Assembly (NCBI RefSeq): GCF_026810365.1
Contig: NZ_CP113948.1
Span: 3,999,501-4,063,500 of the forward strand
Reading direction: 5' to 3'
DNA length: 64,000 bases
From: Flavobacterium praedii
GTDB taxonomy: Bacteria; Bacteroidota; Bacteroidia; Flavobacteriales; Flavobacteriaceae
Both the position numbers and the translations under genes were made by a program. Below, one piece after another: positions 2,355-9,234 of the stretch (position 1 is the stretch's first letter; the number at the start of each line of letters is the position of its first letter). Below the pieces are notes generated by a model that had not been told where the DNA came from, did not search any database, and saw only the letters and a program-made list of their open reading frames with translations.

Positions 2355-3395
2355 ATGAATCCATTTATAGAAATAGCCGGTAGAAAAATCGGTCCCGATT
2401 ATCCTCCTTTAGTTATTGCCGAAATTGGTATCAATCACGAAGGGTCATTAGAAGTAGCCAAAGAAATGGTTGATGCAGCCCAACGAGCAGGAGCTGAGGT
2501 AGTAAAACATCAAACTCATATTGTGGAAGATGAAATGTCTGGAGCTGCCAAAAAAGTTATTCCAGGAAATGCAGATGTTTCCATATATGAAATCATGGAG
2601 CGCTGTTCGTTGAATGAAGCAGATGAATTGGAATTGAAAATGTACGTGGAGCGTAAAGGGATGATTTTTATTTCTACCCCCTTTTCCCGTGCCGCTGCGG
2701 AACGATTGAAAAAGTTTGATATTCCCGCTTATAAAATTGGATCTGGCGAATGCAATAACTATCCATTATTGGAGCATATCGCCTCCTTTGGTAAGCCCGT
2801 TATTTTGAGTACCGGAATGAATACCATAGAAAGTATCCGAAAAGCGGTTGCTATTTTTGACCGTCATGAAGTGCCGGTGGCTTTGTTGCATACGACTAAT
2901 TTATATCCAACCCCAATACATTTAGTTCGGTTTGGGGCGATGATGGAAATGCACCATGCTTTCCCCGATAAAGTATTTGGATTGAGTGACCATACGTTGA
3001 ATAACAATGCCTGTTTGGGAGCAGTGGCTTTGGGTGCCAGTATTTTGGAACGTCATTTTACGGATCACATGCAACGTACCGGACCAGATATTGTGTGCAG
3101 TATGGATGAGCGAGCCACAAATGAGTTAATTGAAAATTCTAATGAGATTTGGCAAATGCGCGGGGGAGTCAAGGAACCTGCAAAAGAAGAACAAGTAACT
3201 ATTGATTTTGCTTTTGCCACAGTTTGTGCTATCGCTGATATAAAAAAAGGAGAAGTATTTACCAAAGAAAATATTTGGGTGAAACGTCCTGGAACAGGGA
3301 AGATTTTAGCTGAGCATTTTGATTCTATTTTGGGTAAAAAAGCGACTCAGGAAATTGTTAATGATGTTCAGTTGACTTGGGAAGATATTGAATAA
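2355..3395 (+). CDS. neuB: N-acetylneuraminate synthase (sialic acid synthase)
   Basis: Condenses phosphoenolpyruvate with N-acetylmannosamine to form Neu5Ac. The 346-residue protein has the NeuB TIM barrel followed by a C-terminal SAF (antifreeze-like) domain. Visible signatures are [10 protein letters not shown] (about 22-31), [21 protein letters not shown], the metal-binding histidines in GLSDHT (about His213) and ERHFTD (about His234), and the SAF arginine in VKRPGTG (about Arg311). From memory these blocks match the Neisseria meningitidis synthase closely, more so than PseI or legionaminate synthases. It is preceded by a 127-base gap from neuA and followed by a REP palindrome and neuC. 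Confidence 0.93.
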
Positions 3396-3408: not shown

Positions 3409-3441
3409 AATCCTTTCAGAGTTCAAAACGCTGAAAGGGTT
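3409..3441. repeat. REP-like palindrome, copy 1 (neuB-neuC gap)
   Basis: Imperfect hairpin with arms CCTTTCAG (3412-3419) and CTGAAAGG (3431-3438), plus flanking AA/TT pairs. It belongs to the same family as the better-conserved copies at 4593, 5324 and 9169. One base in the inner arm has drifted (acgctg where the others read actctg). It lies just upstream of neuC. Confidence 0.8.
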
Positions 3442-3461
3442 GGTTGATTATAAAAAAATAA

Positions 3462-4583
3462 ATGAAAAAAATCGTATTTCTAACTGGTACTCGTGCCGAT
3501 TTTGGTAAAATAAAATCATTGATTTCAATTTTGGAACAACAACCCGAATTTGAAGTTTTTGTGGCGGTAACGGGTATGCATTTACAGGAAGAATATGGTT
3601 ATACTTTGTTGGAAATTCAGCGTTGTGGGTATAAAAATATACACACTTTTCAGAATCACACTCATGAGACCACTATGGATTTGACCTTGGCCAAAACCAT
3701 CGAAGGACTTTCTAGTTATGTAAAAACGGTGAAGCCAGATTTAATTCTCGTGCATGGGGATCGTGTAGAGACTTTGGCAGGAGCCATAGTTGGGTCTTTG
3801 AATAATATTTTGGTAGCGCATATTGAAGGTGGCGAAGTATCGGGAACGGTAGATGAACTGATTCGCCATAGCGTGAGTAAACTGAGTCATATCCATTTTG
3901 TTTCAAACTCGGAAGCGGCCAAAAGGCTGAAACAAATGGGAGAAATTAAAGATTCTATTTTTACTATTGGTTCACCGGATATAGATGTGATGTTTTCAGA
4001 TCAACTTCCTGACTTAAAGGTTGCAAAGAAATATTATCAAATTGATTTTGATTTGTTTGGAATTGTAATGTTTCATCCTGTTACCACTGAAATAAAGGAA
4101 ATGGAACAGTATGCAACTCATTTTGTCAATGCTTTATTGGCGGACAGACATAATTATATTGTTGTTTTTCCCAATAATGATTTAGGAAGCAAAACGATCT
4201 TGGCAGCTTATGAGCGATTAAAAGGCAATTCGAGATTCCGAATTTTTCCTTCCCTGAGATTCGAATATTTTTTAACATTATTAAAAAACAGTCAATTCAT
4301 TTTAGGGAACAGTAGTGCCGGAATTCGCGAAGCACCTTATTACGGAATTCCGATTATCAATATTGGCACTCGGCAACAAAACAGAGCCGTTCATGCGGAT
4401 ATTATTAATGTCGATTATAATGAAAGGAATATTTCTGAAGCCTTAAGAATAATCGATTCCCATAAAGTAATACAATCAGATGATGATTTTGGGCAAGGCA
4501 ATAGTGCCGAACTATTTCTAGAATCCCTCCAAAAAGAGACCTTTTGGCAAATGAATCATCAAAAACAATTTAGAGATCGATAA
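3462..4583 (+). CDS. neuC: UDP-N-acetylglucosamine 2-epimerase (hydrolysing)
   Basis: Converts UDP-GlcNAc to ManNAc plus UDP, supplying NeuB. The 373-residue protein has the GT-B-like epimerase fold. Diagnostic blocks are FLTGTRADFGK (about 5-15), HGDRVETLAGA, HIEGGEVSGTVDE, HPVTTE (about 206-211), and GNSSAGIREAPYYG (about 286-299), which binds the UDP moiety. These blocks closely recall the Neisseria SiaA/NeuC enzyme. It completes a neuA-neuB-neuC cassette. REP palindromes lie immediately before and after it, and the following gene is the RAYT transposase. Confidence 0.93.
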   Translation: MKKIVFLTGTRADFGKIKSLISILEQQPEFEVFVAVTGMHLQEEYGYTLLEIQRCGYKNIHTFQNHTHETTMDLTLAKTIEGLSSYVKTVKPDLILVHGDRVETLAGAIVGSLNNILVAHIEGGEVSGTVDELIRHSVSKLSHIHFVSNSEAAKRLKQMGEIKDSIFTIGSPDIDVMFSDQLPDLKVAKKYYQIDFDLFGIVMFHPVTTEIKEMEQYATHFVNALLADRHNYIVVFPNNDLGSKTILAAYERLKGNSRFRIFPSLRFEYFLTLLKNSQFILGNSSAGIREAPYYGIPIINIGTRQQNRAVHADIINVDYNERNISEALRIIDSHKVIQSDDDFGQGNSAELFLESLQKETFWQMNHQKQFRDR

Positions 4584-4592
4584 TAGTCTTTT

Positions 4593-4629
4593 CTAACCCT
4601 TTCAGAGTTTTGAACTCTGAAAGGGTTAG
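4593..4629. repeat. REP-like palindrome, copy 2 (left of RAYT)
   Basis: A perfect 17-base inverted repeat, arms 4593-4609 and 4613-4629, with a 3-base loop (ttg). The core is AACCCTTTCAGAGTT and its complement. It lies 10 bases after the neuC stop and 43 bases before the transposase gene. A DNA hairpin of this kind is what TnpA-REP enzymes recognise. Confidence 0.9.
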
Positions 4630-4672
4630 GAAGATAGGGTTGAAATAAAGCAGAAAAATTTAAAAGTAGTTT

Positions 4673-5302
4673 ATGCAAAACGAAAAATACAAAAAAGAGC
4701 CTTTGGTTTCAGGGAATTATTACCACATTTATAATCGGGGTAATAATGGAATTGATATTTTTTTTGAAAATAGCAACTATGAATATTTTTTAAAGCTATA
4801 TCATCAGTATGTACATCCTTTTGCCGAGACTTTTGCTTGGTGCTTAATGAAAAATCATTTTCATTTTTTGGTGTATATTCGGGATGAAAATGAAGTTTTG
4901 CTTGATTCACTGGAATATTCAACCGTAGAAAAGCCAAAAGTTTTAGATGCTTCAAAACAATTCGGACATTTGTTTAATGCCTATACACAAGCCATCAATA
5001 AACGATATTCTAGGACAGGAAGCTTATTCGAAAAACCCTTTGAACGAAAGAAAGTGAGTTCCGAAAAGTATTTGCAAAATTTAATTTACTACATTCATAA
5101 TAATCCTGTTCATCACGGTTTTACTAAAACAGCCAATGAGTATCCTTGGTCTTCTTATGAGAGTATTCTTTCAGAGATGCCGACTAAACTAAGAAGAGAG
5201 GATGTTATTAGGATTTATGGATCTAAAGAAAATTTTATTGTCTACCATAATGGAGAACAAGATTTGAAAAATATTTTCGATATAAGTATTGATAAACGAT
5301 AA
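4673..5302 (+). CDS. REP-associated tyrosine transposase (RAYT, IS200-like)
   Basis: A 209-residue single-strand DNA transposase of the HUH/Y1 class. The N-terminal block YYHIYNRGNNG (about 17-27) is typical of the family. The HUH motif is HFHFLV (about 62-67), and the presumed catalytic tyrosine lies in the helix YYIHNNPVHHG (about 141-151). It is a single gene without IS ends, bordered by perfect hairpins at 4593-4629 and 5324-5356. That is the classic RAYT arrangement, in which the enzyme acts on dispersed REP hairpins and is not itself a mobile IS. It has no glycan function and interrupts the polysaccharide operon in the sense orientation. Confidence 0.92.
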   Translation: MQNEKYKKEPLVSGNYYHIYNRGNNGIDIFFENSNYEYFLKLYHQYVHPFAETFAWCLMKNHFHFLVYIRDENEVLLDSLEYSTVEKPKVLDASKQFGHLFNAYTQAINKRYSRTGSLFEKPFERKKVSSEKYLQNLIYYIHNNPVHHGFTKTANEYPWSSYESILSEMPTKLRREDVIRIYGSKENFIVYHNGEQDLKNIFDISIDKR

Positions 5303-5323
5303 TAAGTACCCTTTTGGAGTTTC

Positions 5324-5356
5324 AACCCTTTCAGAGTTCAAAACTCTGAAAGGGTT
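5324..5356. repeat. REP-like palindrome, copy 3 (right of RAYT)
   Basis: A perfect 15-base inverted repeat, arms 5324-5338 and 5342-5356, with a 3-base loop (caa). It has the same core as copies 2 and 4. It is followed at once by a degenerate extra half-arm (cagaaagggttaggg). It lies 21 bases downstream of the transposase stop and 39 bases upstream of the next glycan gene. Confidence 0.9.
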
Positions 5357-5395
5357 CAGAAAGGGTTAGGGAAAAAAACATAAATAAAATTAAAA

Positions 5396-6799
5396 TTGAC
5401 ACCAAATAATAAAATAGTCATCCTTTTACCCGACGGAATTGGTCTTCGTAATTTTGCGTATTCCGATTTTCAGGCTATTGGAGTACAAGAAAATTTCGAA
5501 GTAGTTTTTTGGAACAATACTCCTTTTGATTTAACCCAATTGGGTTTTAAAGAGATTAAAATTCAAAACTCCAAATCACACCCACTTACGGAGACCTATA
5601 AAAATGCCCGTAAACAGATTGAGTTGAATCTTAATATACGAAGAACAAAAGACCGAGTTTATGATACCTATAGATTCCCTTTTTCGTATGCCACCACTCT
5701 AAAAGCACTAAAAAGTGGAGTAACGCAATTTTTGTCAATTACCCATTCTTCGACTTTTGGATTAAAACGCATTCGACATAAAATCAAGCAAGAGGAACGC
5801 AAAACCTTGTACTACCATCAATGTTTAGAAACTTTACAAAAGGAACAGCCAGCGATGGTTTTTTGTACCAATCAGCGACCAATGACGGCAATTGCACCAA
5901 TACTAGGAGCACAAGAATTGGGAATCCCTACGGCTACATTCATTTTTTCTTGGGATAATTTGCCCAAGGCGACTATGGTGGTAGAAACTGATTATTATTT
6001 TGTTTGGAGTGATTTAATGAAAAAAGAATTACTCTTTTATTATCCGTATATCAAGGAAGAACAAATTTTTGTTACAGGGACTCCTCAATTTGAATCCCAT
6101 TTTGACACAAATAAGTTGCTCTCAAAAGAAGTTTTTTTTGAGCAGAACGATTTAGATTTGAATAAAAAATACATTTGTTATTCGGGTGACGATGTAACGA
6201 CTTGTCCGGATGATCCGAAATATCTCGAAGATGTTGCAAAGGCTATTCGTGAATTAAACCAAAAAGGGCATTCATTGGGTATTATTTTTCGACGCTGTCC
6301 TGTTGATTTTTCAAATCGATATGGTGAGGTTTTAGAAAACTATAAAGATGTAATCACGCCAATTGCTCCACTTTGGAAAAAAATAGGTGATGGTTGGAAT
6401 ACTGTTTTACCTACTCAAGCTGATATTGATATACAAATGAATACCATAGCACATACTGAGTTAGTGGTTAATTTAGGTTCTTCGATGGTCTTTGACTATG
6501 TAGCTCATAATAAGCCTTGTGCTTTTGTGAATTATGATGTTGTTCCGAAAAAAATATCGGATTGGTCGGTAAAAAAAATATACGATTATGTTCATTTTCG
6601 CTCTATGCCTAATAAAGATACTGTTTTATGGATAGACAGTCCAGAATCGATTACTGGAATAATAGAAAACGCTATTGTAACAAATTCTTTGGTTATAGAA
6701 AACGCACAAAAATGGTTCGAAATTATCAATCAACATCCTCCACAAGAAGCTTCGAAACGTATTTGGGAAGGAATTAAAACCATCATTTCTAAAGAATAA
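5396..6799 (+). CDS. Unclassified GT-B-like glycosyltransferase
   Basis: A 467-residue protein that I cannot assign to a named CAZy family. The N-terminus (KIVILLPDGIGLRNF) and a central FCTNQRPMTAIAPILGA block look like the N-lobe of a GT-B protein. FVTGTPQFE (about 226-234) and a late block VVNLGSSMVFDYVAHNKPC (about 357-375) recall the donor site of CDP-glycerol- or UDP-GlcNAc-epimerase-like transferases. The start is TTG at 5396: an in-frame stop lies at 5381-5383 and the next ATG is about 150 codons in. It directly follows the CMP-sialic acid genes, which makes it a candidate sialyltransferase, but that is inference from position only. Confidence 0.65.
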   Translation: MTPNNKIVILLPDGIGLRNFAYSDFQAIGVQENFEVVFWNNTPFDLTQLGFKEIKIQNSKSHPLTETYKNARKQIELNLNIRRTKDRVYDTYRFPFSYATTLKALKSGVTQFLSITHSSTFGLKRIRHKIKQEERKTLYYHQCLETLQKEQPAMVFCTNQRPMTAIAPILGAQELGIPTATFIFSWDNLPKATMVVETDYYFVWSDLMKKELLFYYPYIKEEQIFVTGTPQFESHFDTNKLLSKEVFFEQNDLDLNKKYICYSGDDVTTCPDDPKYLEDVAKAIRELNQKGHSLGIIFRRCPVDFSNRYGEVLENYKDVITPIAPLWKKIGDGWNTVLPTQADIDIQMNTIAHTELVVNLGSSMVFDYVAHNKPCAFVNYDVVPKKISDWSVKKIYDYVHFRSMPNKDTVLWIDSPESITGIIENAIVTNSLVIENAQKWFEIINQHPPQEASKRIWEGIKTIISKE

Positions 6800-6846
6800 T
6801 CCTTTTCTTTGCATCTAAATTAGAATACAATTTTTTACAATCAATT

Positions 6847-8280
6847 ATGTTTTTCAATTCCCTGGCTTTTGCCATTTTTTTGCCCATAGTGTTTTTCTTG
6901 TATTGGTTTGTTTTTAATAAAACGAAGAATACCCAAAATGCACTCCTTATCGTCGCCAGTTATTATTTTTATTCCTGTTGGGATTGGCGGTTTTTGTTTC
7001 TGTTGGTTTTCTCTACATTTCTGGATTATTATACCGGGATTCAAATTGAGAAAAGCACCAAAGATAAAGGACGCAAATTTTGGTTTTGGTTGAGTATTGG
7101 TGTCAATTTGGGATTCTTAGGAATTTTTAAATACTATAATTTTTTCTCCGCTTCGTTTGCACAAATGCTGACTTCTGTTGGGTTCAAGGCGAGTCCTATT
7201 TTACTGGATGTCATTTTACCGGTTGGGATTTCATTTTATACCTTTCATGGATTATCCTACGTGATCGATATTTATTACAAACGCATCAAAGCCGAATATA
7301 ATTTTGTCGATTACTCTTTGTTTGTGAGTTATTTTCCGTTATTGGTGGCGGGTCCTATTGAAAGAGCCACTCATTTATTACCTCAGGTTAAAGTTAAAAG
7401 AGAATTTAATTTGGCTCAAGCCAAAGAAGGAATCTGTCAAATCATTTGGGGATTGGTCAAAAAAGTGGTTATTGCCGATACTTGTGCTACGTATGCTAAT
7501 GCTATTTTTGATAATTACACCTCTATGAATTCATTGTCGTTGATTTTGGGAGGGGTTTATTTTGCGTTCCAAATTTATGGTGATTTTTCAGGATATTCGG
7601 ATATGGCCTTGGGAATGTCAAAATTGTTTGGGTTGGATTTATTGCGCAATTTTAATTACCCTTATTTTTCAAGGGATATAGCAGAGTTTTGGCGTCGTTG
7701 GCACATTTCACTTTCCTCTTGGTTTCGGGATTATTTATATATTCCGCTGGGTGGTAGCAAAGGATCGAAAGCGATGCAAGTCCGTAATGTCTTCATTATA
7801 TTTGTGGTAAGTGGTTTTTGGCATGGTGCCAATTGGACCTATCTGGCTTGGGGATTTATCAATGCGGTTTATTTTCTACCTCTTTTATTGTTGAATAGAA
7901 ATCGGAGTAATGTCGATGAAATTCAATTGAAATGGAATTGGGATTCGGTTAGAACAATCGTAAGTATTGTTACAACATTTATTTTAAGCACTATTGCCTG
8001 GGTATTTTTTAGAGCCAAGACCATAACAGATGCCTGTTTGTATCTGAAACGAATAGTAATAAACAGAGAGTTTACTAGTCAGTATCTTGTAAATGAGCGT
8101 TACAACTATGAATTAGTATTGATGGTCGGTTTGTTTGTTCTAGTCGAATGGAACAATAGAACCAAAGTCGAGCCTCTATCAGGGAAATACAATACGGTAA
8201 AGTTGGTTTTGGCGATAGCTGCCATTCTCGCTTTTGGAACCTATTCGGATTACAAAGAATTTATATATTTTCAATTCTAA
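6847..8280 (+). CDS. MBOAT-family polysaccharide O-acyltransferase (AlgI-like)
   Basis: A 477-residue integral membrane protein with about ten hydrophobic segments. The MBOAT signatures are FWRRWHISLSSWFRDY (about 280-295) with the conserved LYIPLGG that follows, and the presumed catalytic histidine in SGFWHGANWTYLAWG (about 322-336). Proteins of this kind move acetyl groups across the inner membrane for O-acetylation of alginate, peptidoglycan or capsules. Its stop codon shares its last base with the start of the SGNH-like partner, so the two are translationally coupled. The target is probably the glycan made by this operon. Confidence 0.92.
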   Translation: MFFNSLAFAIFLPIVFFLYWFVFNKTKNTQNALLIVASYYFYSCWDWRFLFLLVFSTFLDYYTGIQIEKSTKDKGRKFWFWLSIGVNLGFLGIFKYYNFFSASFAQMLTSVGFKASPILLDVILPVGISFYTFHGLSYVIDIYYKRIKAEYNFVDYSLFVSYFPLLVAGPIERATHLLPQVKVKREFNLAQAKEGICQIIWGLVKKVVIADTCATYANAIFDNYTSMNSLSLILGGVYFAFQIYGDFSGYSDMALGMSKLFGLDLLRNFNYPYFSRDIAEFWRRWHISLSSWFRDYLYIPLGGSKGSKAMQVRNVFIIFVVSGFWHGANWTYLAWGFINAVYFLPLLLLNRNRSNVDEIQLKWNWDSVRTIVSIVTTFILSTIAWVFFRAKTITDACLYLKRIVINREFTSQYLVNERYNYELVLMVGLFVLVEWNNRTKVEPLSGKYNTVKLVLAIAAILAFGTYSDYKEFIYFQF

Positions 8281-9155
8281 TGCAAAAGTTTTTACTATTC
8301 ACTTTAAAAATACTTATCTTGACAATAGCTGTGGCCGTTGTTTTAGATTTTGTATACACCGCTATTTACCTTCAGTCTAGTAATCGCGGTAAAATAGATC
8401 ATGTTTACAACTCCAAAAATGAAAATTTTGATGTTGTTATTTTAGGATCTTCCAGAGCCAATAACCATTTTGTTGCCCAAATGTTTGAAGACAAAGGATT
8501 AAAAACCTTTAATTATGGGATGAGCGGAGGTCATTTGTTTGAAGCAGATTTGTTATTGAAATTAATGGTAGAGCGACATTACAAAATTAAAAATGTAATA
8601 CTAGAAGCCGATTTGAATTTGTCTAATGAGCATAGAGATTTTGGTATTTCAAGTAAATTTTTGCCCTATTTACATCAATCGGAATTGATTAAAGAACATT
8701 TTTTTAATGAATTAGATTTTAAAGAGTTGTATTATATTCCTTTTTATCGATATATAAAATTTGATGAACGTATTGGTTTTCGGGAATTTCACGAAGTTGC
8801 TTTAAAAAAACCTACGAACACTTTGGATAATAAAGGATATTACCCTTTGGGCATGAAACCAAATGCCAATATGAAAAACAATATTGCCAATTTGAAGCCT
8901 TTGAGACATAATAAATACTACGATCAAATCAAGCAAATTTGTAAAGCCAATAATATCAATTTCATAGCAGTAATGACGCCTATGTGCGAAAACACAAAAG
9001 GAATTAATTATTTTGATAAAGTGCAACAACTCTATCCCGAAATTCATAATTATGAGAATGTTGTTATCGGGGATCAATACTTTTCGTCTTGCGGACATAT
9101 GAATGATACTGGTGCGAGAATGTTTACTGCCCGAATTTTAAAAGATTTTTTTTGA
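8280..9155 (+). CDS. SGNH-hydrolase-like O-acetylation partner (AlgX/DltD-like)
   Basis: A 291-residue protein with one N-terminal membrane anchor (about 5-28) and a periplasmic SGNH-like domain. The nucleophile block is VVILGSSRANNHF (about 51-63), and the C-terminal acid/histidine block is GDQYFSSCGHMNDTGA (about 261-276). Such proteins accept an acyl group exported by an MBOAT protein and transfer it to a polymer. Its start overlaps the MBOAT stop by one base, a standard two-gene O-acetylation module. A REP palindrome follows the stop. Confidence 0.8.
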   Translation: MQKFLLFTLKILILTIAVAVVLDFVYTAIYLQSSNRGKIDHVYNSKNENFDVVILGSSRANNHFVAQMFEDKGLKTFNYGMSGGHLFEADLLLKLMVERHYKIKNVILEADLNLSNEHRDFGISSKFLPYLHQSELIKEHFFNELDFKELYYIPFYRYIKFDERIGFREFHEVALKKPTNTLDNKGYYPLGMKPNANMKNNIANLKPLRHNKYYDQIKQICKANNINFIAVMTPMCENTKGINYFDKVQQLYPEIHNYENVVIGDQYFSSCGHMNDTGARMFTARILKDFF

Positions 9156-9168
9156 TAAACCTACGGGT

Positions 9169-9216
9169 AACCCTGTCAGAGTTCCAAACTCTGAAAGGGT
9201 TAAACTCTGAAAGGGT
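9169..9216. repeat. REP-like palindrome, copy 4, with an extra half-arm
   Basis: Arms 9169-9183 and 9187-9201, 14 of 15 pairs intact (CCCTGTCAG against CTGAAAGGG), with a 3-base loop (cca). The right arm is duplicated at 9202-9216, so the left arm could pair with either. It sits between the O-acetylation pair and the next glycosyltransferase, 18 bases before its ATG. Confidence 0.88.
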
Positions 9217-9234
9217 AAATTGACAAGTAAAAAA

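Follow-up and report, generated by a model that had tools for sequence, protein, structure and literature searches.

The RAYT-A locus

The 64,000-nucleotide window analysed here (positions 3,999,501 to 4,063,500 of contig NZ_CP113948.1, assembly GCF_026810365.1) comes from Flavobacterium praedii, whose genome (labelled G000) is one contig of 4.17 Mb. A putative sialic-acid-type (neuB-neuC) polysaccharide operon in this window contains a gene for a REP-associated tyrosine transposase (RAYT; REP, repetitive extragenic palindrome), here termed RAYT-A and likely of the group-5 or TnpA_REP subclass 2.6 type (4673..5302, + strand, 209 amino acids), as judged from the open reading frame (ORF), family scores, fold and invariant motifs. 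Copies of a short palindrome lie on both sides of the gene and in other gaps of the operon. When a half-arm of this palindrome (AACTCTGAAAGGGTT) was run over the window with up to three mismatches allowed, ten matches were obtained, compared with a mean of 2.96 and a largest value of 8 in 100 shuffles. Nine of the ten fall within four palindrome sites, and the tenth lies at 5307-5321.

Copy 1 (3409..3441) occupies the gap between neuB and neuC and has two pairs that are not Watson-Crick. Copies 2 and 3 are both perfect and border RAYT-A: copy 2 (4593..4629), 5' of the gene, has a 17-bp stem and a 33-nt core at 4595-4627 (AACCCT-TTC-AGAGTT/TTG/AACTCT-GAA-AGGGTT), while copy 3 (5324..5356), 3' of the gene, has the loop CAA and retains remnants of additional units on either side, namely a decayed 15-nt unit on the left with three mismatches to the half-arm (5307..5321) and a partial unit recognised by its sequence, CAGAAAGGGTT, on the right (5357..5367). 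Copy 4 (9169..9201) has one mismatched pair and is followed immediately by a third 15-nt unit that matches the half-arm (9203..9217). No strand is assigned to any of these repeats. On folding, each of copies 1 to 4 beats all 200 of its own shuffles (z -4.3, -6.6, -5.8 and -4.2, respectively), and all four lie between ORFs, among same-strand genes of the operon. A first-pass annotation of this DNA had proposed four copies of one palindrome at 3409-9216, all in operon gaps, two of them perfect and bordering a RAYT gene with intact motifs, and an additional half-arm at copy 4; the half-arm search, the folding and the ORF map bear out these positions and this arrangement.

The RAYT-A protein

RAYT-A has the HUH motif and single catalytic tyrosine of the Y1 fold, since H62-F63-H64 and Y140 (in the motif YIHNNP) are invariant across 38 aligned relatives. 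Some 65 residues lie C-terminal to the catalytic tyrosine, including a serine pair of which S161 is invariant and S160 is kept in at least 90% of the same sequences. The protein matches the NCBIfam family NF047646 (REP_Tyr_transpos) with an E-value of 5.6e-14 and 52.2 bits, below the 80-bit cut-off, and the two other RAYTs of this type in the genome, RAYT-B and RAYT-C (described below), also remain under it at 59 and 35.6 bits. This cut-off is set for one equivalog, and the shortfall of RAYT-A is taken to reflect distance within the superfamily. The match to Pfam Y1_Tnp is weak (E 0.02, under the cut-off). A profile of 16 RAYT-A relatives finds PDB entry 4er8 (TnpA_REP) at E 1.6e-4, with the next entries at E 0.67 or worse, and the AlphaFold model of RAYT-A (mean predicted local distance difference test score, pLDDT, of 89) has the same structure, TnpA_REP bound to a REP hairpin, as its best solved fold match (E 2e-8), followed by the IS608 and ISDra2 transposases. 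With 4er8 at the top in both sequence and fold, the earlier identification of the gene as a RAYT stands.

Palindromes flank RAYT genes across loci

The association of gene and palindrome extends well beyond this locus. A total of 140 RAYT loci were scanned (32 and 28 from homology searches and 80 named loci, the latter being the best 80 of at least 557 confirmed stretches), with two duplicates left out; the gene was recognised in 133 of the 140, and 126 offered full windows, in which 300 bp were scanned on each side. A palindrome was present within 300 bp on at least one side in 112 of the 126 loci and on both sides in 82, of which 71 had the same arm on both. In control windows shifted by 400, 700, 1000 and 1200 bp, a palindrome appeared on at least one side in 11 of 123, 10 of 121, 14 of 116 and 7 of 62 loci and on both sides in 0, 0, 0 and 1, respectively, and random re-pairing of upstream and downstream palindromes between loci gave the same arm in a mean of 15.5 and a maximum of 24 of the 82. 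Of the 54 loci from the genus, 53 are accompanied by at least one palindrome and 51 by one on each side; in the named set the corresponding figures are 59 and 31 of 72. RAYT-A is itself flanked by its own REPs, the arrangement that defines a REPtron. Six RAYT loci of this kind (L157, L174, L180, L185, L189 and L211) lie in metagenome-assembled genomes labelled Anaerolineae, Chloroflexi, Methylobacter or Anaerolineales, which points either to a transfer from Bacteroidota to other groups or to contigs binned wrongly.

A near-symmetric stem with a lineage-specific triplet

In 93 of the 126 loci a good-scoring odd-centred palindrome was obtained and set in a 33-nt frame, which consists of a half-site (6 nt), a triplet, the inverted half-site (6 nt) and a loop (3 nt), followed by the mirror image. 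The 15-nt arms are nearly palindromic themselves (6-3-6), as in AACCCT-TTC-AGAGTT (RAYT-A), AAAGCT-TCC-AGCCTT and AAACCC-GAC-AGGTTT, and a Reichenbachiella arm (AGTAAC-GAG-GTTACT) has the same symmetry. Over 14 dissimilar arms, in which L175 and L207 are maybe not cognate repeats and L109 looks out of register, a mean of 4.29 of the 6 internal pairs are complementary compared with 1.60 in shuffled arms (sd 0.29, largest 2.71 of 2000), shuffles alone forming the control because the other palindromes in the same loci were reduced to two by filtering, too few for comparison. Such symmetry would also permit each arm to fold by itself. In eight elements, however, two small hairpins reach +0.8 to -5.3 kcal/mol as against -11.6 to -16.6 kcal/mol for one long hairpin, which argues against folding of the arms one by one. 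The long hairpin, being far more stable, is most likely the form adopted, and the symmetry of the arms is more plausibly that of a symmetric stem.

Within clade A the half-sites are widely common and the triplet varies (TTC, GTC, GAC, ATC, AAC, TCT, TGA, CGA, GCC and CGC among others). At loci with comparable palindromes on the two flanks, the triplets are the same in 47 cases, reverse complements in 5 and otherwise different in 3; chance would make 4% of the eight non-identical pairs such flips (p 9e-6, with loci taken as independent). A stem with a flipped triplet is unchanged when turned end to end, suggesting that it is readable in both directions. The more alike two RAYTs are, the more alike are their arms, with a Mantel r of 0.48 over 96 loci (maximum of 2000 permutations 0.14) and of 0.47 over the 31 loci of clade A (permutation maximum 0.31), and an identical arm is found in 79% of RAYT pairs at 75-85% identity as compared with 3% at 55-65%. 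There are exceptions: the RAYT-A arm recurs at L030 and L151, where identity to RAYT-A is 65% and 55%, and a different arm is found at L028, where it is 71%. Stem changes among palindrome copies are two-sided. Covariation alone suggests that the RAYT may read the stem triplet.

The clades also differ in whether one strand is distinguished from the other. Palindromes of type B beside RAYT-B genes have TAT on both sides (ATA when reversed) in 41 of 53 cases, outside the paired stem, and they tend to occur as inverted pairs, with the full order > < > < in 7 of 16 loci. A third clade (L111-L119), with RAYTs of about 183 amino acids, has TAT feet and imperfect palindromes of the form CCTGCAAGG...CCTTGTAGG with a recurrent wobble that is G.T on one strand and appears as A.C on its complement. 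Over the clade and the named loci together, 42 matches to these palindromes were obtained, of which 28 have the wobble and the other 14, pooled over loci, include some from outside the clade. Among 65 distinct A-type copies (up to four mismatches) in loci from several genomes, no conserved foot, flank or target was found, and the GTAG or GTGG foot 5' of the hairpin that marks classical REPs is missing from them. Set against these footless copies, whose two strands look alike, the TAT foot and G.T wobble of the sister clades suggest that one strand is marked there and apparently not in clade A.

Three systems in one genome

The F. praedii genome has three tamed transposase genes of group-5 type, each flanked by its own hairpin family. 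RAYT-B (L025, G000:C1:2678600-2679187) is flanked by CCTAACAGGTTT-nnn-AAACCTGTTAGG and RAYT-C (L026, G000:C1:3313799-3314362) by ACCTTTGTCAAAGTT-nnn-AACTTTGACAAAGGT. RAYT-B and RAYT-C are 42% and 43% identical to RAYT-A and 46% identical to each other, and hence none of the three is a recent duplicate. A RAYT relative at G000:C1:1569006-1569470 (L255) exceeds the NCBIfam cut-off with 96.6 bits, unlike RAYT-A, RAYT-B and RAYT-C.

Including the copies that flank the RAYTs, the genome has 10 palindromes of type A (up to three mismatches), 9 of type B (up to two) and 27 of type C (up to three), and reversed control patterns of the three had no match anywhere in it. Four of the ten A-type copies lie in the polysaccharide operon and six elsewhere; two of the ten are inside ORFs (L004, 472 amino acids, and L017, 313 amino acids). 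Classical REPs are described as dispersed and mainly intergenic palindromes usually present in more than 100 copies (Nunvar 2010). Measured against this description, 61 of the 65 A-type copies are intergenic and this genome has 10. A genome search for the consensus had been expected at first pass to return tens of intergenic copies, and the dispersal is supported by the six copies beyond the operon, but their number falls short, with ten rather than tens.

Copy number largely follows the matching RAYT

Four palindrome types (A, B, type 2 and type 3) were tabulated against RAYT type in 199 genomes of the genus, incomplete genomes included, and a genome was counted as having no RAYT of this kind when it gave no match at E <1e-10 to RAYT-A or RAYT-B. 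The matching set for type A consists of G000, G017 and G125, which have the identical arm, and G046, which has the triplet GTC; that for type 3 consists only of the four loci with flanks read, leaving out G096, G159 and G183 (54-56 copies, with related RAYTs). In genomes with a matching RAYT there are 6, 7, 10 and 28 copies of type A (4 genomes), 2-49 of type B (16 genomes, median 20), 2-14 of type 2 (6 genomes, median 7) and 9-59 of type 3 (4 genomes). Because the matching sets had been chosen by their flanking palindromes, the RAYT-flanking copies were subtracted, which leaves 5-26, 0-46, 1-12 and 6-57 copies, respectively, still above the remaining genomes (Mann-Whitney p 2e-6 for A, 7e-9 for B, 2e-14 for type 2 and 4e-4 for type 3, with genome kinship ignored). 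For type A, p stays at or below 3.4e-5 when G046 is dropped or when G036, whose downstream flank is within three mismatches of type A, is added.

The 120 genomes with no detected group-5-type RAYT have medians of 0 for all four types and maxima of 3 (A), 27 (B), 4 (type 2) and 99 (type 3), and ten or more copies are found in 11 of them for type B and in 14 for type 3. The proposal that copy number should follow the presence of the RAYT is thus upheld for type A, with 6-28 copies in the four genomes with the matching RAYT as against 0-3 in the 120 without. The copy number of A and type 2 tracks the matching RAYT closely, and the link is looser for B and type 3, for which a strict rule that the palindrome occurs only where the RAYT is can be ruled out by RAYT-less genomes with 27 and 99 copies. 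These copies indicate that palindromes either outlive the gene or spread without it.

Palindrome-rich genomes with no detected RAYT of this kind include G103, G083, G136, G108 and G088, among others, with up to 99 copies of AAACCCGACAGGTTT in G103. In a search of 14 such genomes with the REP_Tyr_transpos family, 13 gave a match at E 1e-3, four of which exceed the cut-off, and G138 gave none. We read these palindromes as persisting after loss of the RAYT; another enzyme could also be serving them.

Genomic context and alternative explanations

With ORFs of at least 100 amino acids considered, 4 of the 65 A-type copies lie inside an ORF (the two in F. praedii mentioned above being among them), as against 1939 of 2440 random 33-mers. 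The neighbouring genes could be classified for 56 intergenic copies: they are co-directional at 43, convergent at 12 and divergent at 1, as would be expected at transcript ends or between the genes of operons. This distribution would suit palindromes that act as bidirectional intrinsic terminators or mRNA-stabilising hairpins under selection on operon expression, with the RAYT as an unrelated passenger. However, T-tracts are mostly absent (at least six T in the next eight nucleotides at 18 of 122 hairpin ends, with A commoner than T), which disfavours the terminator reading, the sequence of the stem tracks the RAYT lineage, and the operon of the closest relatives has the same genes (the genes alone being compared) without any palindrome. 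An origin in transcript function is on these grounds very unlikely.

The genes around RAYT-A allow the site to be compared with its counterparts. Upstream are a neuB-like N-acetylneuraminate synthase gene (2355..3395, + strand; TIGR03569, 2.8e-119, slightly below the cut-off) and a neuC-like UDP-GlcNAc 2-epimerase gene (3462..4583, + strand; TIGR03568, 4.3e-122), and 3' of RAYT-A is a glycosyltransferase-like gene (5396..6799, + strand; NF046086, 1.9e-9, below the cut-off), a homologue of which adjoins neuC in relatives such as G056, G157 and G094. The neuC region was compared over 30 loci. Apart from G000 and G046, the gene after neuC begins no more than 4 nt from the neuC stop or overlaps that stop in 20 of 28 loci, TAATG being a frequent form. 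In the four nearest relatives (G056, G157, G094 and G168, neuC 89-91% identical) the neuB-neuC gap is 1-4 nt and the same operon genes are present with neither palindrome nor RAYT in the operon. A RAYT directly follows neuC in two of the 30 loci, G000 and G046 (RAYT 71% identical), and an A-family palindrome is found in the neuB-neuC gap in three, namely G000, G046 (triplet GTC) and G105 (decayed); the gap of L243, which begins at neuC, was not judged. The compact operon of the relatives indicates that the RAYT and the palindromes are additions, and the insert splits genes that appear translationally coupled in those relatives. The relative that has the filled site in common with F. praedii is more distant than those with empty sites, which requires transfer, repeated insertion or precise loss.

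Other repeats are also found at this junction. A different inverted repeat (approximately CTCGACTGCGCTCGAC / GTCGAGCGCAGTCGAG) lies in the neuB-neuC gap of other species (L231, L242 and L245), and a palindrome of another type (AGACCTGATAGGTTT...) in that of G067 (L241). Intergenic repeats seem to accumulate at the neuB-neuC junction, and the polysaccharide operon is the present seat of the RAYT and not necessarily what it serves.

A cassette added to a compact operon, in which a single ORF of transposase fold lies between two near-identical palindromes, could also be an ordinary single-gene insertion sequence or a TIRtron, with the palindromes as its terminal inverted repeats and the dispersed copies as solo remnants. 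This is very unlikely: the three RAYTs of the genome, at 42-46% identity, offer no recent duplicate, each palindrome is a complete hairpin, the palindromes outnumber the gene, and the edges of the insert past the palindromes are uneven when compared with empty sites, where inspection by eye revealed no target duplication. That the palindrome is a double-stranded site for an unrelated regulator of the glycan genes, as four of ten copies in one polysaccharide operon and a dyad symmetry of the sort used by dimeric DNA-binding proteins would allow, is hardly credible given six copies elsewhere, a single copy between divergent genes among the 56, and two-sided changes and a match to RAYT lineage that it leaves unexplained.

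A probable REPtron with a private palindrome family

The locus is very probably a REPtron of group-5 type, that is, a single-gene HUH/Y1 transposase (RAYT-A) accompanied by a private family of short palindromes. Several observations weigh against this. At the level of the protein, the NF047646 score is below its cut-off, the Y1_Tnp match is weak, and RAYT-A departs from the printed consensus of its likely subclass (discussed below). At the level of the repeats, only 31 of the 72 named loci are two-sided and 13 have no palindrome, the A-type copy number in this genome is low, and no foot, flank or target is conserved in clade A. At the level of distribution, A-type copies are present in 41 of the 195 genomes outside the matching set (21 of 75 with another such RAYT, with a maximum of 13 in G105, and 20 of 120 without, with a maximum of 3), and types B and 3 reach 27 and 99 copies in RAYT-less genomes.

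By inference from the family, the palindrome would become single-stranded, for example on the lagging strand, and fold into a 15-bp hairpin, which RAYT-A, by analogy with E. coli TnpA_REP and from its fold, may bind and nick through Tyr140; over time the enzyme would copy or move palindromes into other intergenic sites. The anatomy of the repeats suggests that RAYT-A may read the stem, mainly the middle triplet of a nearly symmetric half-site scaffold, and that clade-A RAYTs may need no foot to mark the strand. A broader and distinctly tentative proposal, which we hold to be possible but doubtful, is a modular code based on a near-symmetric stem of 15 bp, in which the half-site would denote the clade and the triplet would be the private address of the RAYT, readable from either end; clade A would do without strand discrimination, sister clades would keep it by means of a TAT foot or G.T wobble, a genome could hold parallel addresses, and an abandoned address could outlast its RAYT. 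Natural RAYT-palindrome pairs number in the dozens and have one scaffold in common, those of clade A differing largely in the triplet, such that a recognition code could be tested by triplet swaps, and the presence of three private systems in one genome allows specificity to be controlled internally. How fast repeats decay without the enzyme could be asked of the RAYT-less genomes, in which up to 99 copies are found.

Comparison with known systems

The RAYT-REP pair itself is of a published kind. A clean pair had been considered surprising in Flavobacteriaceae at first pass; it is less so because Bacteroidetes RAYTs with atypical flanking hairpins have already been reported (Quentin et al. 2018, PMC6006769, as far as its accessible text goes). 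The accessible part of Nunvar 2010 has no match to Bacteroidetes terms. For RAYTs of groups 2 and 3, in vitro work has established how the REPs are chosen (Corneloup et al. 2021, PMC8266576, in the sections available), and comparable work on the Bacteroidetes group was not found in the literature as partially accessible. Neither were the arm symmetry, the lineage triplet and the difference in polarity found described in the accessible portions of the literature on Bacteroidetes RAYTs, and no claim is made that they are unpublished.

According to the available text of Quentin et al. 2018 (PMC6006769), TnpA_REP subclass 2.6 corresponds to RAYT group 5 of Bertels et al. 2017, occurs mostly in Bacteroidetes, and is characterised by NH[LIV]H, WQ, YIH[QN]NP and a conserved serine pair, with atypical flanking hairpins that have no GT[AG]G and have copies elsewhere in the genome; the same text describes the subclass as not conserved in the WQ region. 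RAYT-A resembles this subclass in its Bacteroidetes host, its YIHNNP, its C-terminal extension with S160-S161 behind the tyrosine, its GTAG-less flanking hairpins and their dispersed copies, and differs from the printed consensus in having NHFH and no WQ. The 6-3-6 arms, the lineage triplet and its flips, the TAT foot or G.T wobble and the presence of three systems per genome go beyond the subclass as described in that portion of the source. Subclass 2.4 (RAYT group 4), found in Cyanobacteria and Bacteroidetes, is given there with NH[IFV]H and YIxNNP, with REPs that have a GT[AG]G foot and with proteins that have no C-terminal extension. The NHFH and YIHNNP of RAYT-A fit these motifs, and its letters fit better than with subclass 2.6, but its palindromes are footless and it has the extension of about 65 residues and the serine pair. 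Judged from these sequence features, membership of subclass 2.6 (RAYT group 5) is likely, although not proven because one letter of the HUH motif differs from the consensus, and membership of subclass 2.4 is less likely.

Among better-characterised systems, the E. coli REPtron (group 2, structure 4er8) shares its fold and catalytic motifs with RAYT-A. In the available sections of Corneloup et al. 2021 (PMC8266576), its REP is described as bulged in the stem and as having a GTAG foot, whereas clade-A palindromes are perfect or nearly so and footless. The group-3 REPtrons of Stenotrophomonas and Marinomonas have, in the same sections, perfect palindromes like those of clade A together with a GTAG motif and critical loop positions, but here the apical loop varies and it is the stem triplet that changes with the RAYT. 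Type-B palindromes beside RAYT-B, which form inverted pairs with 62-197 bp between their starts and have oriented TAT feet, resemble REP doublets forming hairpins (REPINs) and bacterial interspersed mosaic elements (BIMEs), whereas the clade-A copies of F. praedii are single palindromes, some with an additional half-unit.

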